This document shows positions 36,665-50,292 of a stretch of DNA of 64,000 nt, piece by piece. The stretch is from Halobacillus mangrovi. Its GTDB lineage: Bacteria; Bacillota; Bacilli; Bacillales; Halobacillaceae. How positions within the stretch are numbered: position 1 is the first letter of the stretch; each line of letters opens with the position of its first letter. The notes beneath the pieces are model-generated. The model was not told the origin of the DNA, made no database searches, and saw nothing but the letters and a program-made list of their open reading frames with translations. The position numbers and the translations under genes are program-made. Location: assembly GCF_002097535.1 (NCBI RefSeq), contig NZ_CP020772.1, forward strand, positions 2,604,001-2,668,000, in the 5' to 3' direction.

Positions 36665-37573
36665 CTACTTTTTCTCAAGGTCATTCATCACTTCAGCAAA
36701 ATTCCCACTCTTCTCTTCCAGGAATTCTTTTGCTTTTTCTGCATCTGCATTTAGCAGGACCATAAGTATAGCAACACGGGCATCACCTTGTGCCTGTTCA
36801 CTATAGCGGAGAGCCTCCGCTTCACTCACTCCAGTTATTTCTTGAATGATCGAAAGAGTGCGTTTACGAAGTTTTTTATTGGATGCCTGGACATTAATCA
36901 TCAAATTGTTATACACCTTACCAAGCTTGATCATTGACGCAGATGAAATCATGTTAAGTACCATCTTTTGAGCAGTGCCTGCTTTCAATCTTGTAGACCC
37001 GGTGATGACTTCCGCTCCTACTGGCAATTCAATAGGCAAATCAACTACCTTAGAGAGTTCGGCATTGTGGTTACAGCTAATACCTGCTGTCGGTACACCT
37101 AACTTTTTAGCCGCATCAATAACCCCAAGCACATATGGGGTCCTGCCGCTTGATGCAATGCCTATCACCATATCATTCAGGCTCACATGCTTTCCAACAT
37201 CAGCGACCCCTGCCTCTTCGCTATCCTCTGCTCCTTCAATCGCATAGCGGAGGGCATGGTCCCCTCCAGCAATAATGCCATTTACTAAATCCTCCGGCAC
37301 GCCAAAAGTCGGCGGACATTCTGATGCATCAAGCACACCCAACCGCCCACTCGTCCCAGCTCCAAAGTAAAACAGCTTTCCTCCATTCTTTACAACTTCT
37401 ACAGCCTGATCGATGACTTTTTCAATTTGAGGAAGCGCACGTTTGACGACTGCGGGCACCACATGATCCTCTTCATTCATCAGCTCGATAATTTCAAGTG
37501 TAGAAAAGTTGTGCAGGCGTTCCGATTTCTTATTGCTCATTTCCGTATTTAATCGATCGTTGACGTCTGTCAT
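36665..37573 (-). CDS. murQ: N-acetylmuramic acid 6-phosphate etherase MurQ
   Basis: This 302-residue SIS-domain lyase converts MurNAc-6P to GlcNAc-6P and lactate. FGAGTSGRLGVLDASECPPTFG (near residue 70, given as a landmark in two parts FGAGTSGRLG and ASECPPTFG) and GIASSGRTPYVLG are the family motifs, with the catalytic Glu in ASE. The C-terminal helical domain (ITGVSEAEALRYSEQAQGD) is present. GGAGGTACAAAT precedes the ATG. It is the last gene of the importer unit, 13 bases after the kinase gene. Confidence 0.95.
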   Translation of the reverse strand: MTDVNDRLNTEMSNKKSERLHNFSTLEIIELMNEEDHVVPAVVKRALPQIEKVIDQAVEVVKNGGKLFYFGAGTSGRLGVLDASECPPTFGVPEDLVNGIIAGGDHALRYAIEGAEDSEEAGVADVGKHVSLNDMVIGIASSGRTPYVLGVIDAAKKLGVPTAGISCNHNAELSKVVDLPIELPVGAEVITGSTRLKAGTAQKMVLNMISSASMIKLGKVYNNLMINVQASNKKLRKRTLSIIQEITGVSEAEALRYSEQAQGDARVAILMVLLNADAEKAKEFLEEKSGNFAEVMNDLEKK

Positions 37574-37586
37574 ATTTGTACCTCCA

Positions 37587-38573
37587 TTAGATGATGGTGC
37601 CGCAAATCGACTGATAGGACGACTTTGCTTTTCCTTTTACTTCTTCTGTAATTGAAATCCCAGCGGTTATCAAGGCACAGATACAAGCCCCTGCTGCTGG
37701 AGAAATATCCGGATTACATAACTTTTGTCTAATTTCCCGTTGTTCCATTTGTTTTTTAAATGAAATCCTAAAAAACTCGGATTGAAACAACCCTCCGCAG
37801 AGGACTAAGAACTCATTCTTCTTTTCAATGATTTTAACGAATCCTAATAGATCGTCTATAGATTTATAAATAAGAGTTAGAGCAGCCGGATTCTGCTGTT
37901 CTGCAAGAATGATCACAGTTCGTGCCAGAGAAGCAATTTTTAAGCGAGGGTAAGGATTTTCATAAATTTTAGTAATGACCTCAGGTATGGTTGTCAAATC
38001 CAAGTCAGAAAGCATCTTAGCAATAAACGCTTCATCTTTTTTTTCTCTTCCGTCGTGCATAGCTGAGATTAGCTTCAAGGCTCCTCTTCCGATATCATAG
38101 CCGCTTCCTTCATCTCCAAACAGATACCCCCAGCCGCCAACTCGCTTAAGGTTTTTTTCTTCTTGGGTAACAGAATAAGCAATTGATCCTGTTCCTGCGA
38201 TTAAAACATTGCCATGTAGAGAATATGTTCCGCTTGCCAATGCTCCATAGGCATCATTACGTACATCCATTCGTCCCTTGAAGTCCGGAAGCACCTCATA
38301 CATCCACTTTTTCCAACGTAAACGATCTTCTTCTCGATCTCCGCCTGCCGTTGAAACGTAGATTCCCTTCAAGCTATCGATTGGAAGGGTTTTGGTTAAC
38401 TGCATAAATATCTTGTGGATGGCAGATCGTACGTCTTGTTCGCTTCGTGATTTTAAATTCGTCGATTCAGTTAACATTCGTTGGATGATCATACCTTCAT
38501 GATCACAAAGCAGCGCCTCTGTTTTTGAACCACCGCCGTCAACTCCAACATAATAACTTTTACTTGATTGCAC
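37587..38573 (-). CDS. BadF/BadG-type amino-sugar kinase (MurK-like)
   Basis: This 328-residue ASKHA-fold kinase has phosphate motif 1 YVGVDGGGSKTEALLCD (residue 8), STAGGDREED, VLIAGTGSIAYSV (ATP), GGWGYLFGDEGSGYDIGRGAL, and a C-terminal VLCGGLFQSE. Family members phosphorylate GlcNAc or, like clostridial MurK, both MurNAc and GlcNAc. The placement directly before murQ makes MurNAc kinase the best inference: it would make the MurQ substrate from sugar imported unphosphorylated. The start is GTG at 38573, overlapping the permease gene by 14 bases. Confidence 0.85.
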   Translation of the reverse strand: MQSSKSYYVGVDGGGSKTEALLCDHEGMIIQRMLTESTNLKSRSEQDVRSAIHKIFMQLTKTLPIDSLKGIYVSTAGGDREEDRLRWKKWMYEVLPDFKGRMDVRNDAYGALASGTYSLHGNVLIAGTGSIAYSVTQEEKNLKRVGGWGYLFGDEGSGYDIGRGALKLISAMHDGREKKDEAFIAKMLSDLDLTTIPEVITKIYENPYPRLKIASLARTVIILAEQQNPAALTLIYKSIDDLLGFVKIIEKKNEFLVLCGGLFQSEFFRISFKKQMEQREIRQKLCNPDISPAAGACICALITAGISITEEVKGKAKSSYQSICGTII

Positions 38574-39384
38574 CTTGGGTCAGTCCCTCCATAAATTGCT
38601 TGGAAGCGACAAAGAAGAGAACCATCATTGGAAGCGAAGCCAGAGTCAAACCAGCAAACAAAGCTCCCCAGTCAGCCGAATATTCTCCGAATAAGGACAA
38701 CATCCCCACTGGAATCGTCTTCTTTAAGTCATCGGTAATAAATATTAACGGGAAGAAAAAGTCATTCCACGATTGAATGAATTGAATGATCATCACTGTC
38801 CCCAGCGCAGGCCTCATGAGTGGCAAAACGACATTCCAGAGAATCCGTAAGTTTCCAGCCCCATCCATTCGAGCGGCTTCCTCAAGTTCTCTCGGCATCG
38901 TTCTGAAAAAACCAGTCAAGATGAGGATGGATAACGGGATCCCTGTGGCTACATACATAAAAATCAAGGACCACAACGAGTTTAATAGGTTCAAGTCTTT
39001 CATTAATATAAACAGGGGTACGATACCCAGCTTGATCGGCAGCATCATTCCCATTAAGAAGAAAAAGAAAATCATGTTGTTCCATACAAACGTAAACCTT
39101 GCGATATAAAAAGCTGCAAGAGAAGACGTGACTAGAATGAGCATCACAGAAACGACACTCACAATCACACTGTTTGTAAAGTAAGTCATGAACGGAACCA
39201 TTTCCAGCAAGTTTCGGTATGTATCAAGGGAGAACGACTGTGGAAATGCCAGCGGACTTGTAAAGATTTCTGCACTCGTTTTGAACGAGGATAAAATCAT
39301 TAATAGAATGGGATAGATGCTGACAGAGGCAACAAAAAAGGCAAAGGCATAATAAAACGGTTTTGACCAGATGGTGTGATTCAT
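38560..39384 (-). CDS. Carbohydrate ABC importer permease (MalG-type)
   Basis: This 274-residue inner membrane permease has six predicted helices and the EAA loop EEAARMDGAGNLRILWNVVLPLMRP (near residue 165; landmark EEAARMDGAG). The C-terminus QFMEGLTQGAIK is typical of MalG/UgpE subunits. It pairs with the MalF-type subunit encoded 10 bases upstream. No ATPase gene is present, as usual for CUT1 importers that share MsmX. The substrate is probably MurNAc or a muropeptide, by context. Confidence 0.9.
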   Translation of the reverse strand: MNHTIWSKPFYYAFAFFVASVSIYPILLMILSSFKTSAEIFTSPLAFPQSFSLDTYRNLLEMVPFMTYFTNSVIVSVVSVMLILVTSSLAAFYIARFTFVWNNMIFFFFLMGMMLPIKLGIVPLFILMKDLNLLNSLWSLIFMYVATGIPLSILILTGFFRTMPRELEEAARMDGAGNLRILWNVVLPLMRPALGTVMIIQFIQSWNDFFFPLIFITDDLKKTIPVGMLSLFGEYSADWGALFAGLTLASLPMMVLFFVASKQFMEGLTQGAIK

Positions 39385-39394
39385 TCTATCCCTC

Positions 39395-40381
39395 CTACAT
39401 ATCGACTTGTTTTTTCTGCATGTACTTTAAATAAAGGGCCGTAAAGAAAGCAATAAACAGGAATAACACAACAGCAAGTGCGGATCCGAGACCAACAGCT
39501 GTAGTCGCACCACCTGTCGAACCGCCAAAGGCAAGACGATAGAAATAAACGGCCAGTGTGTCGGTGGAATGGTAAGGTTCTCCTTGCGATCCCTGCATGG
39601 CGTAGACGAGTTCAAAGGCTTCAAACGACTGAATAAACGTGAGTACAGTCATAATCATGATGGATGGCACCATCAAAGGAATGATGATTCTCGTAATCAT
39701 TGAAAAACTGTTTGCCCCATCCAGTCTTCCTGCTTCAAGTAGCTCTTGAGGAATGGACTGAAAGCCTGCCAGGAAGATTAATACACCGAATCCGAGCCCG
39801 TACCAGCAGTTTACGAGAATAATAGCGATCAAGGCGGTATCCGGATCACCGAGCCAAGCTTTTTGCAAAGACTCTAATCCCAGCCTCTCAAGAATTACGT
39901 TTAGCGCTCCGTAGTTCGGGTTAAGAATCAGCTTCCATAGGAATCCGACGACTATGACAGACAGTAACCTTGGCAGAAAGTAAGCAATTTTTAAGAATTC
40001 TGATCCGCGGACCTTTTTGTAAATCACATAGGCTAGTAGAAAAGCAAGGCCATTCTGAAAAACCATCTGCAGTGCGAAATAGAGGATATTGTGACCGAAC
40101 GCATTCCAAAATAAATCGGAAAAAGGCTGAAGTGTAAAGAGATCTTTGAAATTTTTCAAACCGACGAACTCTCCGCGAACGATGCCTTTCCAATCAAAGA
40201 AACTGTAGGTGAGTGCAGCAAACAGCGGGTAAACAATGAACAATCCGTAAATGAGTAAGGCGGGAATAGGGAAAAGGTGAATCGTCCACCTTTTCCAGTT
40301 CCTTTGCTTTTTTGTTTTGCTTACCGTTCTCGTCGATGCTTTCTTATTCTCCGCCCCTTGTGTTCTATTGTAGTGGCTCAT
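39395..40381 (-). CDS. Carbohydrate ABC importer permease (MalF-type)
   Basis: This permease of about 328 residues has a basic cytoplasmic N-terminus, six helices, and the EAA loop ELLEAGRLDGANSFSMITRI (near residue 205). The start is uncertain: ATG at 40381 or GTG at 40396. Both overlap the 3' end of the solute-binding protein gene, suggesting coupling, and neither has a strong ribosome site. It is part of the importer unit. Confidence 0.88.
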   Translation of the reverse strand: MSHYNRTQGAENKKASTRTVSKTKKQRNWKRWTIHLFPIPALLIYGLFIVYPLFAALTYSFFDWKGIVRGEFVGLKNFKDLFTLQPFSDLFWNAFGHNILYFALQMVFQNGLAFLLAYVIYKKVRGSEFLKIAYFLPRLLSVIVVGFLWKLILNPNYGALNVILERLGLESLQKAWLGDPDTALIAIILVNCWYGLGFGVLIFLAGFQSIPQELLEAGRLDGANSFSMITRIIIPLMVPSIMIMTVLTFIQSFEAFELVYAMQGSQGEPYHSTDTLAVYFYRLAFGGSTGGATTAVGLGSALAVVLFLFIAFFTALYLKYMQKKQVDM

Positions 40382-41645
40382 ACCAGGACGCTGCACTTTC
40401 TTGTATTGCTTTTGCTACTTCTTCCGGTGTACGCTCACCTAAGTACATACCCTGCAATTCTGTTTCAAGTGTTGCTTTAGTCGTAGGGTTACCACCTGAA
40501 AAATGAACGAGCATCATGTATGGCGTAGACATTTCCTCTACGGCTTTACTAAGGTCGTTAACGAGCTGATCATCAGATTCAATTCCCGGAATGGCACTAA
40601 TCATTTTAAATTCTTCAGTGAAAAGTTTTCCAAATTCCTCCGTTGTCATGAATTGAACGAATTTTTTCGCTGCCTCTTTGTGTTCTGAATTCGCATTTAC
40701 AGCGTAGGATCCATCCACCCATGTCGTAATCGTTGGATCTTTGCCGACAGCTGAAGGCATCGGGAAGAAACCTAGCTCAAGATCAGGGTTCATTTCACGC
40801 AACACCTCAATTTCCCAGCTTCCTAGCGGGAACATGGCAGCGTCACCTGTGAAGAACATCGTACGAATATCTTCCATGCCTAACCCTTCATAGTTTTCAG
40901 GGAAGTACTTTTTGAGCTCATCCATCGCATCAATAGAGGTTTGAAATTCTTCACTCGTAAAATCTGTTTCTCCAGCAGTAATTTTATCAACGAATTCATT
41001 ACCGCCGTAATGAGCTGGGCCTATGATTCCGTGTGATAAGGACAGAAGCCAGCCTTCTTTTGATCCAAGAGAGATCGGGGTGTACCCTCCTTTTTTCAAC
41101 GTTTCATTTAAAGAAATGAATTCTTCCCAAGTTTTCGGTTCTTCCAGACTGAGTTCATCGAAGATTTTTTTGTTATAAAACATTTGCGTTGTACTGATGT
41201 TTAAGGGAACGCCGTATTGTTTTCCATCCGATCCTTTAGAGGCGGCCAAGGTATCTTCTGCGAACTTATCAAGACCTTCTAGATCATCTAATGGCTCAAG
41301 ATAACCAGCATCGGCAAGCTCGATGCCTGGAGCATAAGGACGAAGGTGAATAATATCCGGACCTTCCCCACTCTTAAGAGCTGTATTTAAGATCGTGTTA
41401 TATTCGGTGTTCTTAGAAGGTTCAAACTCAACGTTAATATCTGGGTTTTCTTCTTGAAATTTATCGATTACTTCTTGGTAACTTGCTTTATCTTCCGTTC
41501 TCCAGCTGCCAATTGTTAACGTAACACTGTCTTCACCCGAATCTGAATCACCCGATGCATCCCCACCGCTTTCGGAGCTACATCCAGACAAAATGAGAAT
41601 AAATGCTAAAAACCCAATAAAAGTAAACGCTTTCATTTTTTTCAT
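40365..41645 (-). CDS. Carbohydrate ABC importer solute-binding lipoprotein
   Basis: This 426-residue family 1 binding protein has a signal peptide and lipobox ILILSGC (lipidated Cys22), followed by a Gly/Ser/Asp linker, so it is tethered outside the membrane. Conserved segments include LTIGSWRTEDKASYQEVIDK, PDIIHLRPYAPG and TTWVDGSYAVNANS. The ligand is not readable, but the gene lies between an AmiE-like hydrolase and the MurK/MurQ genes, so a murein sugar is likely. AAGGGGGATCATGTT precedes the ATG. Confidence 0.9.
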   Translation of the reverse strand: MKKMKAFTFIGFLAFILILSGCSSESGGDASGDSDSGEDSVTLTIGSWRTEDKASYQEVIDKFQEENPDINVEFEPSKNTEYNTILNTALKSGEGPDIIHLRPYAPGIELADAGYLEPLDDLEGLDKFAEDTLAASKGSDGKQYGVPLNISTTQMFYNKKIFDELSLEEPKTWEEFISLNETLKKGGYTPISLGSKEGWLLSLSHGIIGPAHYGGNEFVDKITAGETDFTSEEFQTSIDAMDELKKYFPENYEGLGMEDIRTMFFTGDAAMFPLGSWEIEVLREMNPDLELGFFPMPSAVGKDPTITTWVDGSYAVNANSEHKEAAKKFVQFMTTEEFGKLFTEEFKMISAIPGIESDDQLVNDLSKAVEEMSTPYMMLVHFSGGNPTTKATLETELQGMYLGERTPEEVAKAIQESAASWYEPLQ

Positions 41646-41658
41646 AACATGATCCCCC

Positions 41659-42669
41659 TTAATTAATTAAAGATGAATGAATCAGTGAATGCAGATGAGG
41701 CCGAATACGACTCATTTGGTGCTTCCTTCCGTAATGCACGATATTCGTTAATAAAGCGACGACAAGCTCTTCCTTTGGGTCCACCCAAAGACTGGTTCCT
41801 GTAAATCCTGTGTGGCCAAAACTTCCCTCTGACCACCTCCTTCCACATGAAAGCTCCTTGCCTTGACCGCTCCACACTTCAAACCCCAGCCCTCGATTTT
41901 GAATCACGTGTGTGGTTGCCTGCTGCATTCTCTCAGCTCGGATAACTTGTTGTGCAGTAGGATAGAGAAAGTAAATACCTAATTTAGCGACATCCGAAGC
42001 TGTTCCAAACACCCCTGCGCTTCCGCTTCTTCCTTTAAGAAGATGAGCCTTTTCATCATGTACTTCTCCTTGTATGTAATGATTTTTATACCATTCTGTA
42101 GAAGCTGTCAGATCGGGTTCTTGTGGGTTAAAAGAGGTATTCGTCATCTGTAAAGGATTAAAAAGATACGTTTTTGTAAATTGGTCTAGTGTTAGGCCGC
42201 TGATCCTTTCTATGATTTTCCCTAGCAGAATCATTCCCAGGTCACTGTAGAGGACCTGTTTTCCTGGAGAATGAAGCAAATCCAGTTGGGTGATTTCATA
42301 TAAAATATCTCTACTTTCCTCTCGTTTGACCATTTGAAGATCAGCGGGAAGGCCTGTTGTATGGGTAAGCGCGTGTTTAATTCGGACTTCGGGATGGCTG
42401 AACTCTGGGATGTAGGTTTGAATGGAGTGATCCAATTCCAGACGGCTGTGATCCAGCAGCCATAGGATGGATGGAAGTGTAGCCACTACTTTTGTAAGCG
42501 AGGCCAAGTCAAAGATGGTGTTCGTTGTAATCAGCTGTTCTCTTTGCTTACGATCGGTAAATCCCCCGTATGCTTTGTGAAAAACCGTCCTGCCTTTATG
42601 CTGGATATGGAGAACTGCACCTGGAATCTCTTTACGATCAACTGATTCAGCTAAATATTGGTCAAACAT
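41659..42669 (-). CDS. Cytoplasmic serine hydrolase, class C beta-lactamase/AmiE-like
   Basis: This 336-residue protein has the penicillin-recognizing fold with nucleophile motif DLASLTKVV (SxxK), YSDLG (Tyr of YxN/S), and a GHTGFTGTSLW block replacing KTG. It resembles B. subtilis AmiE/YbbE (N-acetylmuramyl-L-alanine amidase) but has no signal peptide (MFDQYLAESVDRKEIPG), unlike the paralogue at 47115-48797. It would act on imported MurNAc-peptides inside the cell; this is inferred. The ATG overlaps the murR stop by 8 bases, and the gene precedes the importer. Confidence 0.8.
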   Translation of the reverse strand: MFDQYLAESVDRKEIPGAVLHIQHKGRTVFHKAYGGFTDRKQREQLITTNTIFDLASLTKVVATLPSILWLLDHSRLELDHSIQTYIPEFSHPEVRIKHALTHTTGLPADLQMVKREESRDILYEITQLDLLHSPGKQVLYSDLGMILLGKIIERISGLTLDQFTKTYLFNPLQMTNTSFNPQEPDLTASTEWYKNHYIQGEVHDEKAHLLKGRSGSAGVFGTASDVAKLGIYFLYPTAQQVIRAERMQQATTHVIQNRGLGFEVWSGQGKELSCGRRWSEGSFGHTGFTGTSLWVDPKEELVVALLTNIVHYGRKHQMSRIRPHLHSLIHSSLIN

Positions 42670-43516
42670 GTTTTTTCACATCAACAGCTTTGCGGGTTCT
42701 CTCAAGGGCTGCCACGCTTTCTTCATAATTTCTACTCGTCATGCCAACATACAAAATATCTATCACGTTGAGCTGGGAGATTCGCGAACTCATCGCACCG
42801 CTTCGAATGCTCTTTTCTAATGAGCTTGTGTATAGCTTGATATCAGCGAGTTCTGAAACTGGATTTGATCCGTATTTCGTTAAGGTTATGACTTTAGCTC
42901 CGTTATCCTTAGCTACCTTCAAAGATTGAATGATATCTATGGTTTGACCTGAATAAGAAATGCCAAAAACGACATCTGACTCTCCGAGGTTTGCACTGAT
43001 CGTCCCTTGCGTATCATAGTCGACAGCGGCTTCACACCAGCGATTGATCCTTGATAGCTTTTGTTTAAAATCCTGGGCGATTAACCCCGAGGCACCGATT
43101 CCGTAGAGGGCAATTTTCCTTGCCTCCTGGAGGGCACTGATCGCTTTCTCTACTTCTTCTTTAGATAGAACTGAAATGGTGTCATGAATAGACTGGATAT
43201 TGTTGTTTGAAACATTGGATATGAAAGAGTCTACAGACCCATCAATTGAAATCTCCTGGTAGGACTGATTGAAAGACGAAGATTGTGATGCCAAATCCCC
43301 GGCAATCCTTAGCTTCAACTCCTGAAAGCCTTTGTAATTGAGGGTGCGGGCTAAACGGATAATTGTCGCTTCACTCACTTCTGCCCGCTGCGAAAGCTTC
43401 TGGATGGACAAGTTGATTACTTCTTCTGGAAAATTAATTATGTATTCGGCTGCTTTACGTTCGGACGGCTTCAGTGAGGTAACTGCCTCTTGAATACTGA
43501 TCAATCCCCCGTTCAT
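42662..43516 (-). CDS. murR: MurR/RpiR-family regulator
   Basis: This 284-residue protein has an N-terminal HTH_6 domain (SERKAAEYII...SIQKLSQRAEVSEATIIRLARTL, landmarks residues 15-60) and a C-terminal SIS domain (IALYGIGASGLIAQDFKQKL, near 135), which binds a sugar phosphate such as MurNAc-6P. It heads the importer unit and probably autoregulates. In B. subtilis murR is also in the murein recycling operon. AAAGGAGGCAGCTC precedes the ATG. Repeated AAGTTTTATT sequences lie in its promoter. Confidence 0.88.
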   Translation of the reverse strand: MNGGLISIQEAVTSLKPSERKAAEYIINFPEEVINLSIQKLSQRAEVSEATIIRLARTLNYKGFQELKLRIAGDLASQSSSFNQSYQEISIDGSVDSFISNVSNNNIQSIHDTISVLSKEEVEKAISALQEARKIALYGIGASGLIAQDFKQKLSRINRWCEAAVDYDTQGTISANLGESDVVFGISYSGQTIDIIQSLKVAKDNGAKVITLTKYGSNPVSELADIKLYTSSLEKSIRSGAMSSRISQLNVIDILYVGMTSRNYEESVAALERTRKAVDVKKHV

Positions 43517-43560
43517 GAGCTGCCTCCTTTCTCATTTGCTTCAGTTTATTCTAGTTTACC

Positions 43561-43602
43561 AAGTTTTATTTAATAATCAAGTGAATATTCTGAAGTTTTA
43601 TT
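43561..43602 (-). promoter_or_regulatory. Candidate MurR operators in the murR promoter
   Basis: AAGTTTTATT occurs at 43561-43570 and identically at 43593-43602, 32 bases (three helical turns) apart, in the murR leader. AGTTTTATT appears again at 49013-49021, upstream of the amiE-nagZ-namZ unit. The sequence is AT-rich, so chance is possible. Confidence 0.35.
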
Positions 43603-43616
43603 ACATTCTTAAAAAT

Positions 43617-43647
43617 ACCACCCGCATTCGCTTGCGGGTGGTCTGTT
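43617..43647 (-). terminator. Terminator after namZ
   Basis: ACCACCCGCA (43617-43626) pairs with TGCGGGTGGT (43633-43642). On the minus strand the tail is T-rich. It separates the secreted-enzyme operon from the murR promoter. Confidence 0.85.
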
Positions 43648-43648
43648 T

Positions 43649-44929
43649 TTAGTATAGGAGGTAGTTCTCTCTCACTTCTTTAAATTCAATTAAGTCTTCC
43701 TGCCATTTGGCTTTCATTTCTTCCACACTGCTTCCTTCTTCAATTGCTTCACGGATCCATCCGTTTCCAACTAATAGATCAAAGAATGACACACCTTCAC
43801 TATTTTCAGCACGGAACTCAAAATCTTCAGGATACAGGTCATGAATGGTTTTTACTAGGCTTACGCCTGTAGTGACTGGCTGAAAAGCTTCTTTATCTGT
43901 CACATGGATCTGTACCCCATGAGATAATTCACCAGCATGCTTAGAAAAAGATGGTGTGAACGATGCTGCTCTGAAATCAACGCCTGGAAGTTCCAATTCA
44001 TTAAGAGCGGAAGCAAGCTCAGTTGAATCAATGTAGGGCGCGCCAATCAGCTCAAACGGTTTTGTTGTTCCCCGTCCTTCCGATACATTCGTTCCTTCAA
44101 TTAATGCCGCCCCAGGGTAGACAAGTGCAGTATCCAGCGTCGGCATATTAGGAGATGGAAGTACCCACTCTAATGGTGTCTCATCATAATACATATCCCG
44201 CTTCCAATGATCCATTTCTACCACAGTCAAGTCAGCTCCAATACCGAATTCCTTGTTGAACAACTTGGCAAGCTCACCCACAGTCATGCCATGACGAAGA
44301 GGGATTTCATACTTTCCTACAAATGAAGAGTATTCATCGTTAAGTACTGGACCTTCAACTGCTTCACCGCTCAGTGGATTCGGACGGTCGAGTACGATAA
44401 ATTCAATATTTTTTTCCTGCGCGGCTTCCATTGCATATGCCATCGTGTAAATGTAGGTGTAGAATCTTGTCCCTACATCCTGGATGTCAAACAAAAGAAC
44501 ATCAATACCCTCTAGCATTTCAGGGGTTGGTTTTCTTGTTGATCCGTATAGACTGTACACAGGCAGTCCTGTAGCTTCATCGATGTAATACTCTACATAC
44601 TCTCCTGCCTGAGCACTGCCGCGAACACCGTGTTCCGGTCCATAAAGTGCGGTTAAATTAACATCAGGGTCGTTATGAAGAATATCCACGATGCTGTTAA
44701 GCTCCTGATCCACACCAGTAGGGTTGGTGATCAGTCCGACATTCTTATCTTCAATCAGCTCCTTCTCATCTTCCAGTAAAACCTCTACCCCAAGCTCAAA
44801 GTTCTTATGCTTTTGCTTGTCATTCCCATACCCATGACCCTTTCCTTTCCCGTTATTGTCGGCGAGCACAACAGATAGAGATGACAACACGAGCAGCAAC
44901 GCCAAGAAGATAATCGACCATTTTTTCAA
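43649..44929 (-). CDS. namZ: Secreted exo-beta-N-acetylmuramidase NamZ (DUF1343)
   Basis: This 426-residue exported enzyme (signal peptide MKKWSIIFLALLLVLSSLS..., cleavage near ALA/DNN) of the DUF1343/GH171 family, typified by B. subtilis YbbC/NamZ, releases MurNAc from the non-reducing ends of peptidoglycan chains. Conserved blocks are VGLITNPTGVD, LYGPEHGVRG (catalytic Glu region), DIQDVGTRFYTYIYTM, and VLDRPNPL. It is the third gene of the amiE-nagZ-namZ operon, 63 bases after nagZ. Confidence 0.9.
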   Translation of the reverse strand: MKKWSIIFLALLLVLSSLSVVLADNNGKGKGHGYGNDKQKHKNFELGVEVLLEDEKELIEDKNVGLITNPTGVDQELNSIVDILHNDPDVNLTALYGPEHGVRGSAQAGEYVEYYIDEATGLPVYSLYGSTRKPTPEMLEGIDVLLFDIQDVGTRFYTYIYTMAYAMEAAQEKNIEFIVLDRPNPLSGEAVEGPVLNDEYSSFVGKYEIPLRHGMTVGELAKLFNKEFGIGADLTVVEMDHWKRDMYYDETPLEWVLPSPNMPTLDTALVYPGAALIEGTNVSEGRGTTKPFELIGAPYIDSTELASALNELELPGVDFRAASFTPSFSKHAGELSHGVQIHVTDKEAFQPVTTGVSLVKTIHDLYPEDFEFRAENSEGVSFFDLLVGNGWIREAIEEGSSVEEMKAKWQEDLIEFKEVRENYLLY

Positions 44930-44992
44930 GACAACATTCCTCCTCTAATTTTATACAAGCAGGCAGAGAATTGATCCCTGCCTTTTATTGAA

Positions 44993-47089
44993 CTAGTACG
45001 TTAACCCGTGACCGAATGGGTATAGGATCCCATTTTCTTCCCCTGGAATCGTTACTGGCAGTTTTCCTGCAGGTTCATTTTCTCCAAATATAGCAGCAGC
45101 CGTTGCCTCAAAACTAGCGGTTCTGAAACCATATTGAGCAAGATAAGCATCCACTTCAGGGTAAGCCATGATATCATATGGATTTCGGATTCCTACACCG
45201 ATCACTGGTGCATTTTGAGTCATTAGGTGATTCACCATTTTCATTTGAGGGTGTTCTGGAGATCTTGTCCCCACACTGTATGTGTAAGTGCCAACGATGA
45301 TTTTATCAGCTGATTCGACGAGTGTTTCCTGTTCTTCAGTAAAGTCATAGTCTGAACCCACATCTACCACCGTCGTATTCGCATGCTGTTCTTTAACAGC
45401 CTCTCCAAGGGAATCAACAAAACTATTTCCGATGACAACTACATGCTCATCGCTTTCCGCTTCTAAAGGCAGAACTTGATCATTTTTCACTAAGGTAATA
45501 GATTTTTCCGCTGCTTCTTTTTCTATGGCTTTATGTTCATCTGATCCTACGGTTTCAACAGCACCTTGGATTTTATCTTCGATTTCTTCTAGATTCTCAG
45601 ACTTAATGATGCCTCGGTTTACTTTCAGAGTTAAGATACGGTCTACAGAAGCTTCAATTCGTTTCTCTGAAATCTCCCCAGATTCCACTGCGTCAAGAAG
45701 TCCCCCGGCCACTTCTTCAAGGCCGACTGGCATCAATACGATATCAGTTCCCGCTTTTACGGCACGAACGGCTGCGTCAACGGCTCCAAAATGTTCAGCA
45801 ATCGCGTTCATATTCATCGCATCTGTAATAATCACACCTTCATGGCCCATCTCTTCTCGCATCAGTCCTGTCAATACCTTATGGGAGAGGGTGGCTGGAA
45901 GAGAAATTTTCGTTCCGTCTTTTTTAGAAATCACTTTCGTATCATCAATTTTCGGGAAGGTGACATGAGCGGTCATCACCGCATCGATTCCAGCTTCCAT
46001 AGCTTCCTGGAATGGATACAGTTCAACCTCTTTCAAACGTTCTTTATCGTATGGGACTTCTGGGAGGCCAAGGTGTGAATCTACGGCTGTATCCCCATGG
46101 CCAGGGAAGTGCTTAGCCGTGGCAGCTACTCCTGTTTCTTGGAGACCTTTCGTATAAGCCACACCAAGATCTGCCACTAGCTGTGGGTCTTCACCAAATG
46201 AACGCACACCGATGACAGGATTGTCTGGGTTATTGTTAACATCCAAAACTGGAGCCAGGTTCATATTAATTCCAAGAGAAGAAAGTTCCTCTCCAATGGC
46301 ATGGCCGACATCATAGCTGATTTCTTCAGACCGGGTCGCTCCAAGCGCCATGTTTCCTGGCATGTCGGTTCCGGATTGAAGACGTGTGACTATTCCGCCT
46401 TCCTGATCAATCGTCATCAACAATCCAAATTTCTCTGAAGCTTCTTTATAGGCTGAAACCAATTTTGCTGTCTGCTCTGTTGTAACAACATTCTCTCTAA
46501 AGAGAATGACTCCGCCTAAATGGTACTTCTGGATTTGTTCTTCAATTTCAGGAAGCATTTCTGTCACATTCTCGCCATCCCACTTACGGAAATCCGGCAT
46601 AAGCATCTGACCGACTTTTTCTTCCAGTGTCATACCTTCGATGGCCTTTTGGATAATGTCGTAACGAGCTCCTTTCTGCTTACCAAGTGACGGTTCGGCT
46701 TTTTTCACAGAAGATTTATTTACTTTGTAATCCAGAGCAATTCTGTCCGAATGCACACCATCTGAAACACTAATAAACGTGCGTCCTCTATGCTCCAAAA
46801 TCGTTACATTCCCTTCATCATCTACAGTAGCCACATTTTTGTTTGACGATTTCCAAGTCAGGTCGTCCTCCGTCTTCATAAAATGCCCATCATCATAAAT
46901 GTGCAAAGCGTTCAGCGATACTTGATTTCCTTCAATTTGTGTATCAGCTTCTGGCACATTTTGCATGAGTACCAAGTCTGAGACTTCACTTTCGTCAGCA
47001 CTAGCGCCTTTCGGTGTCAAAAGCGCCTGAGAAAAACTCATGACAATCACTAGAAGTGCGATCGTAAACTTTTTACTTGTTACTCCCAA
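44993..47089 (-). CDS. nagZ: Secreted beta-N-acetylglucosaminidase NagZ (GH3)
   Basis: This 698-residue exported enzyme has a signal peptide (about residues 1-31, ends GASADE), a bacterial Ig-like segment (WKSSNKNVATVDDEGNVTIL, residues about 62-115), and a GH3 catalytic domain with AKHFPGHGDTAVDSH (catalytic His/Asp dyad) and GVIITDAMNMNAI (nucleophile Asp). A C-terminal alpha/beta domain (from about 500) follows, as in the two-domain B. subtilis NagZ. It removes terminal GlcNAc from muropeptides outside the cell. The Ig-like insert near the N-terminus makes it longer than B. subtilis NagZ (642). The start is TTG at 47089 after AGGAGGGG. Confidence 0.92.
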   Translation of the reverse strand: MGVTSKKFTIALLVIVMSFSQALLTPKGASADESEVSDLVLMQNVPEADTQIEGNQVSLNALHIYDDGHFMKTEDDLTWKSSNKNVATVDDEGNVTILEHRGRTFISVSDGVHSDRIALDYKVNKSSVKKAEPSLGKQKGARYDIIQKAIEGMTLEEKVGQMLMPDFRKWDGENVTEMLPEIEEQIQKYHLGGVILFRENVVTTEQTAKLVSAYKEASEKFGLLMTIDQEGGIVTRLQSGTDMPGNMALGATRSEEISYDVGHAIGEELSSLGINMNLAPVLDVNNNPDNPVIGVRSFGEDPQLVADLGVAYTKGLQETGVAATAKHFPGHGDTAVDSHLGLPEVPYDKERLKEVELYPFQEAMEAGIDAVMTAHVTFPKIDDTKVISKKDGTKISLPATLSHKVLTGLMREEMGHEGVIITDAMNMNAIAEHFGAVDAAVRAVKAGTDIVLMPVGLEEVAGGLLDAVESGEISEKRIEASVDRILTLKVNRGIIKSENLEEIEDKIQGAVETVGSDEHKAIEKEAAEKSITLVKNDQVLPLEAESDEHVVVIGNSFVDSLGEAVKEQHANTTVVDVGSDYDFTEEQETLVESADKIIVGTYTYSVGTRSPEHPQMKMVNHLMTQNAPVIGVGIRNPYDIMAYPEVDAYLAQYGFRTASFEATAAAIFGENEPAGKLPVTIPGEENGILYPFGHGLTY

Positions 47090-47114
47090 CTTTACCCCTC
47101 CTTATAATTACTTC

Positions 47115-48797
47115 CTAATAAGAACGTTCAACCCAATCGTTACTTGTAAAGGTAAGACTAGAGCCATTTAATTTAACATCATCCACATACCATCCTCGAT
47201 TGTTGACAGAACCATCCGTCTGATAGGTGAACCGGACAAACTTCGCTTCAGCAGGAAGTTCAACTTGCATCACTTCCCATTCCTCGCTGCTTCCCGTGAC
47301 CATTACAGCTTCTGTCCACTCTTCCCCGTCATTCGAATATTCAACGGTTCCTGTGTCATAGCCGTCTTCAATCTTGTACCATGTCTCAAAAGAAAGCGTG
47401 GATTTCTCTTCAAGGTTTAGTTCGGCTATAAGTTGATTTGTTTCATTTGATCCGTATCCTGCAAACCACGCTTCTCCTTTTTTATCCATCTCTACAGGAA
47501 TCGCATCGGCCACTTTTCTGGCAAACTCTCTTCTAGTTGGAGACGTTGAAACCGTGTTTCTACTAGGATGAACACGGTTTGTCAGAAGAATCGCAATGGT
47601 TTGGTTAGTCGGACTCACTACGATTGATGTCCCTGTATAACCTGTATGACCAAGGGTTGTGCTCTCTGATAGAGCATCCATAAACCAACCTTGCTGAAGC
47701 TCCCACCCAAGCCCATGATCGTCACCAGGGAACTGAGGAATCCGATTTTCAGTTAAAAGTTGAATTGTCTCTTGTTCAAGGATGCGTGTCCCTCCATATT
47801 TACCATCCATTAAAAACATGTGAGCGAACTTGGCTAAATCTGACGCTGTAGAGAATACACCGGCGTGACCGGCTACTCCACCAAGGGACCAGGCGCTTTC
47901 ATCATGAACTTCACCCCAGACTAGTCCACGGTTTGTCCATGGCTGATATTCTGTTGCTGCGATACGGTCCTTTAAACGGGCTGGTGGATTATACATCGTA
48001 TCGTCCATTCCGAGTGGTTCTGTAATCTCTTTTTTGACAAATTCATCAAGGCCCATTCCGGACAGACGCTCGATTAAAGCTCCAAGTGTAATCATGTTGA
48101 GATCGCTGTATGTATACTCAGAACCAGGTTCATCTTGGAGAGGATATTGAAATACGTATTGTAGCCGATCTTCGCGGGTACCTTCTATGGTGTAAAGAGG
48201 AATCCATGGTTTAAAACCAGAGGTATGTGTCATTAATTGTTCAATGGTAACGCTTTCTTTTCCGTTTGCAGCGAATTCTGGAATGTATTTGGCAACCGGA
48301 TCATCCAGTTCAAATTTTCCCTGTTCGTATAATTTCATTGCTGCGGTAGTGGTAAACAATTTACTAATGGAAGCAAGATCAAAAATCGTATCTTCGCTCA
48401 TTGGAATAGGATCATCCACTTTTGTGAACTCATCATCTTTGTATTGGACGGCATATCCATAAGCTTCCTCTTTTACGATATGTCCTCTTCTGGCTACGAA
48501 AGCGACGGCTCCTGGCATCACCTGTTCCTGAATAGCTGATTTTAAGACGTTATCGATTTCGTTGAGGGGGGCTTCTCGCATGCCGGCACCTCTAATAGAG
48601 CCCTGATGAAGGACTGGAGAGGTTGGCCCCGGCTGGTCCCATGTAAAGACAGGGTGCCCTTTGTCACTAGACTGGTTTAAATTTTGCTTTCCTTCTTTTT
48701 CAATCGTAGGTCCTTCACTTGCTAAACTGGTTCCTGGTACAAGCAATGTGGTTCCGAGTACAGTCACTAACGCAACAGACACCGTTTTTCGACTCAT
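47115..48797 (-). CDS. Secreted AmiE-like serine hydrolase with C-terminal jelly-roll domain
   Basis: This 560-residue protein has a signal peptide (ends SLASEG, about residue 27) and a class C beta-lactamase fold domain (residues about 75-400) with DLASISKLF (SxxK), YSDLN and GHTGYTGTS. This matches B. subtilis AmiE/YbbE, an N-acetylmuramyl-L-alanine amidase acting on muropeptides. About 120 extra C-terminal residues (TLSFETWYKIEDGYDTGTVE...FVRFTYQTDG...GWYVDDVKL, landmarks) look like a MAM/immune-inhibitor-type jelly roll, absent from B. subtilis AmiE (441 aa). It is the first gene of amiE-nagZ-namZ. AAGGAGGACGCAT precedes the ATG. Confidence 0.82.
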   Translation of the reverse strand: MSRKTVSVALVTVLGTTLLVPGTSLASEGPTIEKEGKQNLNQSSDKGHPVFTWDQPGPTSPVLHQGSIRGAGMREAPLNEIDNVLKSAIQEQVMPGAVAFVARRGHIVKEEAYGYAVQYKDDEFTKVDDPIPMSEDTIFDLASISKLFTTTAAMKLYEQGKFELDDPVAKYIPEFAANGKESVTIEQLMTHTSGFKPWIPLYTIEGTREDRLQYVFQYPLQDEPGSEYTYSDLNMITLGALIERLSGMGLDEFVKKEITEPLGMDDTMYNPPARLKDRIAATEYQPWTNRGLVWGEVHDESAWSLGGVAGHAGVFSTASDLAKFAHMFLMDGKYGGTRILEQETIQLLTENRIPQFPGDDHGLGWELQQGWFMDALSESTTLGHTGYTGTSIVVSPTNQTIAILLTNRVHPSRNTVSTSPTRREFARKVADAIPVEMDKKGEAWFAGYGSNETNQLIAELNLEEKSTLSFETWYKIEDGYDTGTVEYSNDGEEWTEAVMVTGSSEEWEVMQVELPAEAKFVRFTYQTDGSVNNRGWYVDDVKLNGSSLTFTSNDWVERSY

Positions 48798-49046
48798 ATG
48801 CGTCCTCCTTTTTTCTTATCAGGTGTCGCAACTAAAGCCTCCTTTCTTTGCCACTATATTGAACTTCTGTTTCAAGCATAAACCGAGCCTTTATAGTCGT
48901 CTATACCACTTTTGTCACAGTTGGAAAAAAAGTCTTCTGTTTCCAAGACTATCCACCTAAGTCATTTGAATGATTTTGAAATATTATGACATTTAGTTAT
49001 GTTTATTTATGTAGTTTTATTTCAGAATTTCAGTTAAATGCAACGC
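48798..49046 (-). promoter_or_regulatory. Upstream region of amiE-nagZ-namZ
   Basis: This 250-base leader is AT-rich. AGTTTTATT (49013-49021), also found in the murR promoter, lies near its far end, followed by TTCAGAATTTCAG. No clear -35/-10 pair was assigned, and no gene was seen. Confidence 0.3.
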
Positions 49047-49097: not shown

Positions 49098-50292
49098 CTA
49101 ACCAACACTCTTATTTTTTCGGTAAATTAATTGAATCACACAATATAGAAGTAAGAAAATTAACGCTCCACACAAACCGATGGAACCTCCTATCCATCCT
49201 GTTTTATGGGCTGGCATGTTCTCTAAGACAACCCCCGTCCCAAACATAACTAATCCGATTTGGATATTCATAATTGCTTCAATTACGCCGAAGACTCGGC
49301 CTTGTTTCCCATTCGGGATTTGCTGCATGATCAGGGTATCCACACTCGCCCCTCCGACCCCTCCGATGAAAGAAATACTGATAAATAAAAGAGATAAGAT
49401 GAGAAAGTTAGCAGCTTGACTTGCAGCCATCTGAAGACTGCTTTCAACAATTAATGCAGCTATTCCAATGAAGAGGAAGTTCTTTTTTAGTCGTCCTGTT
49501 ACAAGAAAACTTAAAATAAGGCCAGTTCCTAATGATCCATACAGCAAACCGACTCCAAGTTCATCCAACTTGAATGTTTCAGCCCCGTATATACTAATGA
49601 GAACATTAAACACCCCATCCATAGTCGCTGTGACGAGTTGAAGAATGACTGCCACTATAACAAAAGTACCAATCCCCTTTAAAAAGCTGCTCGTAGCTTC
49701 ATTACTTTCACCACAAGTTTGCGAGCGTTTCTTAACAGACAGATTTCTAACAAGGATCGCAGCAGCTAAAAAGGAACACGCATTAAGCACAAAGGCGAAT
49801 TCATTACCAAATAGAAAAGCGACGCCCCCCCCCGGTAATGGAACCTCCAATAAGCACGATTCCTAGAATCAGCTGCTCCATCCCATTCACTTTCATCAAA
49901 ATGGACTCTTCTGCCATTGCTGCAATCGTACTTTTTCTAACTGGCAAATAAAAGGCTTCCCCACATGACAGGGCGATAACTCCTGCAAATACAATCCATA
50001 AATCCTCTTTCGACTGAACAAATAAAAAACTTAAGGCAAAGGGAATACGTAAGAGATCCGTGGCTATCAGCAAATACTTTTTGTTGAGTCGATCTGCGAG
50101 TTTTCCACCCAAGGGAGAAAGCAGTAGAAACGGAAGAATCCGAATTCCGAGTACAGCTCCAACCGCTAGTCCTGAACCTGTGATGTGGAGTACGAGTGTT
50201 AGTACAGCGACTTGGCTGAACCGGTCTCCGATCCCATTGACAATTCCGGAGTAAAATAAATAACGATATGGGTGATGCTTTAATACACTCAT
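49098..50292 (-). pseudogene. MFS transporter interrupted by a frameshift at a G9 run
   Basis: Two overlapping minus-strand frames (49804-50292 and 49098-49850) together encode one 12-helix major facilitator (about 397 residues). The first half begins MSVLKHHPYRYLFYSGIVNG and has the LGGKLADRLNKKY loop typical of MFS. The break lies at nine consecutive G (C9 at 49825-49833 on +). Eight G would give a continuous GSITGGGVAFLFGNEF. This may be phase variation, a real mutation or a sequencing error. GGGGAGGTAATC precedes the ATG. It is probably a drug or metabolite exporter regulated by the ArsR protein upstream. Confidence 0.85.

Follow-up and report, generated by a model that had tools for sequence, protein, structure and literature searches.

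How might a bacterium salvage N-acetylmuramic acid (MurNAc) if it lacks MurP, the transporter of the phosphotransferase system (PTS) around whose uptake Gram-positive peptidoglycan recycling has so far been described? The question is raised by a locus of ten genes in Halobacillus mangrovi (contig NZ_CP020772.1), all on the minus strand at positions 36665-48797 of the 64-kb stretch of DNA analysed here (hereafter, the window). An earlier note had described the locus as a murein-sugar recycling cluster in which an ATP-binding cassette (ABC) importer of the CUT1 type and a BadF-type kinase stand in place of MurP. We propose that the locus encodes a PTS-independent route of murein-sugar salvage, in which an ABC importer would take up unphosphorylated MurNAc, a kinase would phosphorylate it and MurQ would act on the product, a reading to which we assign a probability of about 0.72.

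Gene families were assigned with Pfam and NCBIfam profiles, and signal sequences with a rough hydropathy test. The MurQ, MurR, NagZ, NamZ, AmiE-like, CUT1 and BadF genes named in the earlier note were all found where it had placed them, and their assignments were confirmed, for the AmiE-like genes at the level of the family:

47115..48797, minus strand: AmiEs, secreted AmiE-like serine hydrolase of 560 amino acids (aa) with a C-terminal MAM-like domain (signal-like hydrophobic N-terminus; SISK and YSD motifs)
44993..47089, minus strand: NagZ, secreted GH3 beta-N-acetylglucosaminidase, 698 aa (family profile; signal-like N-terminus)
43649..44929, minus strand: NamZ, secreted exo-beta-N-acetylmuramidase, 426 aa (Pfam NamZ_N and NamZ_C; signal-like N-terminus)
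43617..43642, minus strand: terminator-like hairpin of 10 pairs, 7 of them G-C, closing amiEs-nagZ-namZ (consensus match)
42662..43516, minus strand: MurR, RpiR-family regulator with HTH_6 and SIS domains, 284 aa (Pfam/NCBIfam)
41659..42669, minus strand: AmiEc, AmiE-like serine hydrolase, 336 aa, with SLTK and YSD motifs (no signal sequence; start overlaps the end of murR by 8 nt)
40365..41645, minus strand: SBP, CUT1 solute-binding lipoprotein, SBP_bac_1, 426 aa (lipobox-like N-terminus)
39395..40396, minus strand: PermF, MalF-type permease, BPD_transp_1, 333 aa (Pfam/NCBIfam)
38560..39384, minus strand: PermG, MalG-type permease, BPD_transp_1, 274 aa (Pfam/NCBIfam)
37587..38573, minus strand: MurK-like kinase of the BadF/NAGK group, 328 aa (BcrAD_BadFG; GTG start overlaps PermG by 14 nt)
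36665..37573, minus strand: MurQ, MurNAc-6-phosphate etherase, 302 aa (TIGR00274 equivalog)

These genes appear to form two transcription units, amiEs-nagZ-namZ and murR-amiEc-SBP-permF-permG-kinase-murQ. In the latter, neighbouring genes either overlap or are separated by no more than 13 bp, and the kinase is directly coupled to murQ, as had been claimed, its gene ending 13 bp ahead of murQ. Terminator-like sites number 16 in the region versus 10.0 in shuffles. MurQ scores 378 bits against TIGR00274 (cut-off 302), and NamZ scores 315 bits with NamZ_N and 205 bits with NamZ_C. The best solved match of NagZ is YbbD (3bmx; 3.8e-145, residues 148-697 including the C-terminal domain), and its score with NCBIfam PRK05337 (202.7) is slightly below the cut-off of 207. 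MurR scores 119.8 against NCBIfam NF012026 (HTH-type regulator MurR), below the cut-off of 408, and likewise falls below the cut-offs of the remaining MurR/RpiR models. For the AmiE-like proteins, NCBIfam recognises the beta-lactamase/PBP4B family alone, below cut-off, with SxxK and YSD present; the NCBIfam and PDB matches of AmiEc reach the serine-hydrolase family and no further.

Each biochemical step of the proposed route is predicted from protein family. The secreted AmiEs, NagZ and NamZ would dismantle murein fragments outside the cell and release MurNAc, some of it possibly peptide-bearing. The lipoprotein SBP would capture MurNAc, and PermF-PermG would import it unphosphorylated, powered by the MsmX/MalK-type ATPase of the genome, while the cytosolic AmiEc could remove leftover peptide. 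With ATP, the MurK-like kinase would form MurNAc-6-phosphate, on which MurQ would act next, with N-acetylglucosamine (GlcNAc)-6-phosphate as the presumed end product, from which NagA would continue. MurR is predicted to repress both operons via a palindrome close to GAAATNNAATTTC, and this repression would presumably be lifted once MurNAc-6-phosphate accumulates.

Absence of MurP and conserved linkage of ABC importers to murQ

MurP is absent not only from the locus, as the earlier note had said, but from the whole single-contig genome, as judged by a survey of EIIC proteins, pairwise comparison and a search with a MurP query. The genome encodes nine PTS_EIIC (PF02378) proteins, the best models of which are glucose-type (two proteins), GlcNAc, trehalose, sucrose, fructose, mannitol (two) and mannosylglycerate-type, some below cut-off. 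Because two murQ-linked Bacillota MurPs themselves fall below the NCBIfam cut-off (322 and 325 against 516), absence was judged by pairwise comparison and genome search. Compared with 14 murQ-linked PTS proteins, two of the five Glc-type EIIC proteins, the trehalose- and sucrose-type ones, match over the full length at 27-32% identity and the other three over short pieces only; the 14 murQ-linked MurPs are about 40-98% identical among themselves in the pairs reported. A murP homologue elsewhere in the genome, which the earlier note had held to speak against its proposal, was looked for and not found: a murQ-linked MurP query gave no match at 1e-60, the same query finding MurP at 58% in the genomes of two other loci (L014 and L015), and each of the nine EIIC proteins fits the model of some other transporter best. 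A search of the genome for MupG, made without a positive control, gave no match. A GlcNAc PTS protein (NagP) above its cut-off is present, with the NagA gene adjoining its own. PTS proteins 32-37% identical to MurP in six ABC-type genomes, and one at 36-37% in 11 genomes of the host genus, do not lie beside murQ and were not counted as MurP.

The linkage of the importer to murQ is conserved well beyond H. mangrovi. From a scan of named genomes with MurQ, the best 80 of 569 confirmed loci were read, and 28 of these 80 carry the window's ABC cassette next to murQ (type A). They come from Bacillaceae, Fictibacillaceae, Guptibacillaceae and Paenibacillaceae, and those of their SBPs that were aligned are 48-86% identical. 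The kinase lies between permG and murQ in half of the type A loci (14/28) and is missing there in the other 14; AmiEc is encoded in 21 of the 28 (13/14 with the kinase, 8/14 without). A PTS match is present in 31/80 loci, including L014 and L015, which carry both PTS and ABC genes. The ABC importer does stand in place of MurP here, as the earlier note had it, but not in these two loci, where murP-mupG-murQ lies directly ahead of the ABC operon. The order in L014 is murP, mupG, murQ (49%), murR, amiEc, SBP, permF, permG, kinase, murQ (73%), and its mupG product is above cut-off with both MupG_N and MupG_C. The arrangement, two import routes in tandem (L014:430-10900 and L015:422-10891), has a single MurR-box-like site, before murP.

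In the GTDB family of the host, 39 of 44 genomes have MurQ at 1e-40 (43 genes), and the surroundings of all 43 were read. Six loci are of type A, 21 have the order kinase-murQ-SBPb-permF-permG-murR (type B) and seven are type B without the kinase; the rest comprise a single locus with a different CUT1 set plus kinase and namZ, one Opp-type ABC, four murR/kinase/murQ loci without ABC and three with murP, which is fragmented in one case. In total, 35 of the 43 murQ loci have CUT1 genes, types A and B together making up 34. The two types are divergent, with identities of 24% for SBP, 30% for PermF, 37% for PermG, 31% for the kinase, 38% for MurR and 47% for MurQ. Among the 22 genomes of the host genus, 17 have type B, the window's genome alone has type A and four have no MurQ match. 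MurP at 49% identity or more is full length in 2/44 genomes of the family and fragmentary in one. The comparison of Bacillaceae loci that had been suggested as a check thus found the linkage of ABC genes and murQ kept, which strengthens the pathway reading. Two loci of the family show broken genes: murP in pieces beside murQ in L144, the genome of which (G034) has no BadF match above cut-off, and an SBPb split into two frames in L136 (G015).

Where the kinase is missing from the operon, one is encoded at another site. All seven genomes with split type B keep one strong BadF kinase, divergent beside murR, and all 14 genomes with kinase-less type A encode a BadF kinase elsewhere; in eleven fetched loci (L111-L121), these kinases lie near murQ/nagZ/amiE, near a nagB-like gene, divergent from murR, or alone. 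Counting full-length frames of about 285-400 aa (L032 was dropped, its murQ having no adjoining ABC), a BadF kinase is present in 28/28 ABC-type versus 10/22 PTS-type genomes (Fisher 5e-06; 7e-04 when the ABC side is restricted to the 14 kinase-less loci). As a marker of ABC-type genomes, BadF presence was reduced to a consistency check, being confounded by kinship and by many Paenibacillus paralogues.

On a tree, MurQ sequences sort by import context. Its 93 rows comprise 29 of type A, 24 of type B, 29 with PTS and 11 with a kinase but no co-directional ABC; 7 of 100 chosen rows were lost to a frame filter. The four labels need 6 changes on the tree versus a shuffled mean of 49.2, a contrast inflated by related rows. 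Counted singly, the labels need 2 changes for type A, 3 for PTS and 6 for the kinase without ABC (a label that, for L074 and L121, disregards the divergent CUT1 set beside them), and a branch with support 98 separates type B from all other sequences. Two independent origins of the ABC-murQ coupling are not supported, types A and B as one clade not being rejected (approximately unbiased test, p-AU 0.436; 84 rows, with nine long or odd rows left out).

A palindrome shared by the two operons

Both predicted operons are preceded by a MurR-box-like site, found by pattern match:

43591..43604, minus strand: MurR-box-like site GTAATAAAACTTCA, 74 bp before murR
49010..49023, minus strand: MurR-box-like site GAAATAAAACTACA, 212 bp before amiEs-nagZ-namZ

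The pattern, GWAAYAAARYTWCA, was derived by inspection of the regions before murR in type A loci, and the core of the palindrome is GAAATNNAATTTC. A narrower version, GWAAYAAAACTWCA, has two perfect matches in the window, before murR and amiEs; with one mismatch allowed there are three, the third within another gene, against an expectation of 0.37, and three were reached in 1/100 shuffles. In 105 loci outside the derivation set, 50 of the 105 matches found with at most one mismatch, and 5 of the 13 perfect ones, fall within 300 bp before mur-type genes, where 100 shuffled patterns average 1.8 such matches (standard deviation 1.6, largest 10).

At the same stringency of one mismatch or fewer, the box occurs in 25/28 type A loci (before murP in L014 and L015; missed in L017, L019 and L033), before the kinase in 10/21 type B loci and, in split type B, before murQ in 7/7 and before the split kinase in 6/7. 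It is also found in 12/29 PTS-only loci. Among PTS-type loci with zero or one mismatch, it stands before murQ in L042, L045, L055 and L056 and before murP in L085. Because it precedes PTS-type loci too, the box may be general in Bacillota. Five exact matches occur in the host genome, two at the locus and three without a mur gene nearby; a reversed control pattern has two. MurR would be the protein that binds the box.

Importer, kinase and the nature of the cargo

The CUT1 set consists of an SBP_bac_1 lipoprotein with MalF-type and MalG-type permeases, and the locus has no ATPase gene; the earlier note mentioned neither this nor the missing signal sequence of AmiEc. The genome encodes one OB_MalK ATPase of the MalK/MsmX type (3066677-3066835; NF008653, 511 bits versus a cut-off of 432), which presumably powers PermF-PermG. 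The nearest named relatives of SBP are from H. mangrovi (97%) and Halobacillus sp. BBL2006 (92%). The closest solved folds to its structure model (predicted local distance difference test, pLDDT, 85.1) are chitin-oligosaccharide binders, RafE, AcbH and XylA, all within about 1.5 Z, which is too close together for a ligand to be assigned from structure. R49, K78 and R102 are nearly invariant in 23 aligned SBP-type proteins and are candidates, and only candidates, to bind a carboxylate.

The kinase scores 113.2 bits with the BadF/BcrAD domain (cut-off 31.5). Among solved proteins, Clostridium acetobutylicum MurK (8zo3), a kinase for MurNAc and GlcNAc, ranks first both by sequence (1.2e-29) and by fold (3.2e-24; template-modelling scores 0.83/0.88; 28% identity in the fold alignment; mean pLDDT of the model 94.2); Tannerella MurK (2.9e-05 by sequence) and K1058 are more distant. 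An alignment of 24 kinases shows no variation at the catalytic Asp107. Acceptance of MurNAc has been attributed to small residues at positions that in other kinases hold Glu or His (PMC10465942). At the lactyl-facing site, with equivalence taken from motif spacing, the kinase has Gly-Gly-Trp-Gly ahead of GDEGS and no bulky Glu or His. Asp107 is preceded by Asn, as in 8zo3, where Tannerella MurK has Thr; Asn is described in place of that Thr in homologous sugar kinases, and human NagK, also without the clash, phosphorylates muramyl dipeptide (PMC10465942). The C. acetobutylicum enzyme slightly prefers GlcNAc (PMC5790795), and the model of the NagK_SO3507-type GlcNAc kinase (NF046058) gives 75.8 bits against a cut-off of 370. 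Given the Gly-Gly-Trp-Gly and the Asn, both as in 8zo3, a dual MurNAc/GlcNAc kinase would be the natural expectation. Compared with loci L011, L012 and L013, the kinase is 56-59% identical and its neighbours more so (SBP 85%, PermG 92-93%, MurR 88-89%), as if the kinase had changed faster than they did or had been exchanged.

Unphosphorylated entry followed by the kinase and then MurQ, the order given in the earlier note, is the best reading and agrees with the comparative evidence, but what enters may be a MurNAc-peptide. It is conceivable, though we consider it well short of an even chance, that the main cargo is a MurNAc-peptide (e.g., MurNAc-L-Ala or a muramyl di- or tripeptide), trimmed by AmiEc, phosphorylated and cleaved by MurQ, with free MurNAc secondary; this would overlap with the route set out above. 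Weighing against free MurNAc, and favouring peptide-bearing MurNAc as at least part of the cargo, are the presence of a cytosolic AmiE paralogue in the operon and the murP-mupG-murQ tandem of L014 and L015. AmiEc lies beside SBP in the 21 type A loci that have it and in none of them carries a signal sequence by the hydropathy test (largest value 1.9), and AmiEs has one in the window and in L022, L026, L028, L029 and L164 (L021 and L127 not being judgeable). Since L014 and L015 already own murP-mupG-murQ, which in Staphylococcus aureus serves MurNAc and MurNAc-GlcNAc (PMC6262408), a further importer there would be easiest to understand if it carried something else, and the activity of the related human NagK on muramyl dipeptide (PMC10465942) points the same way. 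However, AmiEc was not seen in type B loci, which share a like kinase-MurQ logic, it is missing from 7/28 type A loci, and its amidase activity is putative, its matches stopping at the serine-hydrolase family. Moreover, CUT1 binding proteins usually take sugars.

Rather unlikely, in our estimation, is a disaccharide (MurNAc-GlcNAc, GlcNAc-MurNAc or chitobiose) or GlcNAc as the cargo, in which case the kinase would be mainly a GlcNAc kinase and MurQ would serve the muramic part only. The chitin-oligosaccharide binders, closest to SBP in fold by a small margin and among its best matches by profile too, fit such a cargo, as does the slight preference of C. acetobutylicum MurK for GlcNAc (PMC5790795). 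Conversely, the signal-like N-termini of NagZ and NamZ argue for exo-cleavage outside the cell, the genome has a GlcNAc PTS protein and gave no MupG match in the search without positive control, and the operon is tied to MurQ and MurR. That the cassette serves an unrelated sugar and its position is due to chance is very improbable: JGI automatic names for part of the SBP group (raffinose/stachyose/melibiose) and RafE among the structural neighbours would suit it, but linkage to murQ is kept in 28/80 named loci from four families and, as types A and B, in 34/43 host-family loci, and the palindrome is shared. Import of MurNAc-6-phosphate, e.g., from teichoic-acid linkage sites, with the kinase dispensable where missing (14/28 type A and seven type B loci), is the least credible, as split type B keeps a kinase paired with murR elsewhere (7/7) with the palindrome before it in 6/7, each of the 14 type A genomes without the kinase in the operon has a BadF gene, and the window's own operon contains the kinase.

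Returning to ATP-driven import of MurNAc followed by phosphorylation inside the cell, the proposal, if true, means that many MurP-less Bacillaceae and Paenibacillaceae are not recycling-deficient. It would separate uptake from phosphorylation, which could allow a cargo larger than MurNAc, names SBP and the kinase as proteins to test, and would correct the automatic raffinose/stachyose/melibiose names in part of the SBP group. A broader and distinctly speculative extension is a Bacillales regulon in which one conserved MurR palindrome governs two divergent kinds of CUT1 importer and a MurK-like kinase for muramic-acid salvage, with type A, through its cytosolic AmiE, importing MurNAc-peptides, which to our knowledge no described CUT1 importer carries, and able to run beside MurP.

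Comparison with known systems and neighbouring observations

The recycling operon of Bacillus subtilis has the order murQ-murR-murP-amiE-nagZ-namZ. The Halobacillus locus shares with it MurQ, MurR, secreted NagZ and NamZ, an AmiE-type hydrolase and the presumed end product GlcNAc-6-phosphate; unlike it, the locus has no MurP and instead has an ABC importer, a kinase and a signal-less AmiE paralogue. YejBEF-YepA of Agrobacterium is a peptide-type ABC transporter. Like the Halobacillus importer, it is an ABC system, described for peptidoglycan fragments (PMC9790009), but it is a Gram-negative muropeptide importer and not a CUT1 system coupled to a kinase and MurQ. MurNAc recycling has been demonstrated in B. 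subtilis (PMC5061867). Similar in logic is MurT-MurK-MurQ of Tannerella forsythia, which joins PTS-independent uptake, a MurNAc kinase and MurQ in one operon (PMC5790795, PMC10465942); MurT, however, is a single secondary transporter, called both a sodium symporter and a member of the major facilitator superfamily (MFS), whereas the transporter of the Halobacillus operon, to which the search for MurT was limited, is an ABC importer. C. acetobutylicum MurK, which acts on MurNAc and GlcNAc, is the nearest solved kinase, yet only 28% identical in the fold alignment. With mupG-murQ-murP-murR of S. aureus, the locus has MurR and MurQ in common, and murP-mupG-murQ recurs in tandem with the ABC operon in L014 and L015; in S. 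aureus, MurNAc and MurNAc-GlcNAc are imported by the PTS with MupG (PMC6262408), whereas neither MurP nor MupG was found in the Halobacillus genome.

Tannerella already offers a known case in which MurNAc enters without a PTS and is then handled by MurK and MurQ (MurT; PMC5790795). New here are an importer of the ABC kind together with a second, divergent form of it, an AmiE in the cytosol and a common candidate operator in Bacillales. The examples of transporters dedicated to MurNAc given in a 2026 review are MurP and AmpG (PMC13209645). The earlier note knew of no described importer of this type in Bacillaceae, and we likewise found no description of a CUT1 MurNAc importer in the open-licence literature (titles, abstract starts and passages); the arrangement itself, however, is widespread.

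Further importer contexts were seen outside the two types. In L164:1370-11336 (G001), a single run holds AnmK, a beta-lactamase-family gene lacking any clear signal, genes for SBP_bac_5 and permeases, murQ, a pair of ATPase genes and mupG; this is a further kind of importer, and the genome has type A as well. In L074:6492-11823, from a metagenome-assembled genome of Spirochaetia, outside Bacillota, a CUT1 cassette 36-41% identical to that of the window is divergent from murQ-kinase. Within the window, positions 49098-50292 (minus strand) hold what appears to be a single MFS-type transporter, its family judged by eye, read as two overlapping frames and possibly a frameshifted gene.

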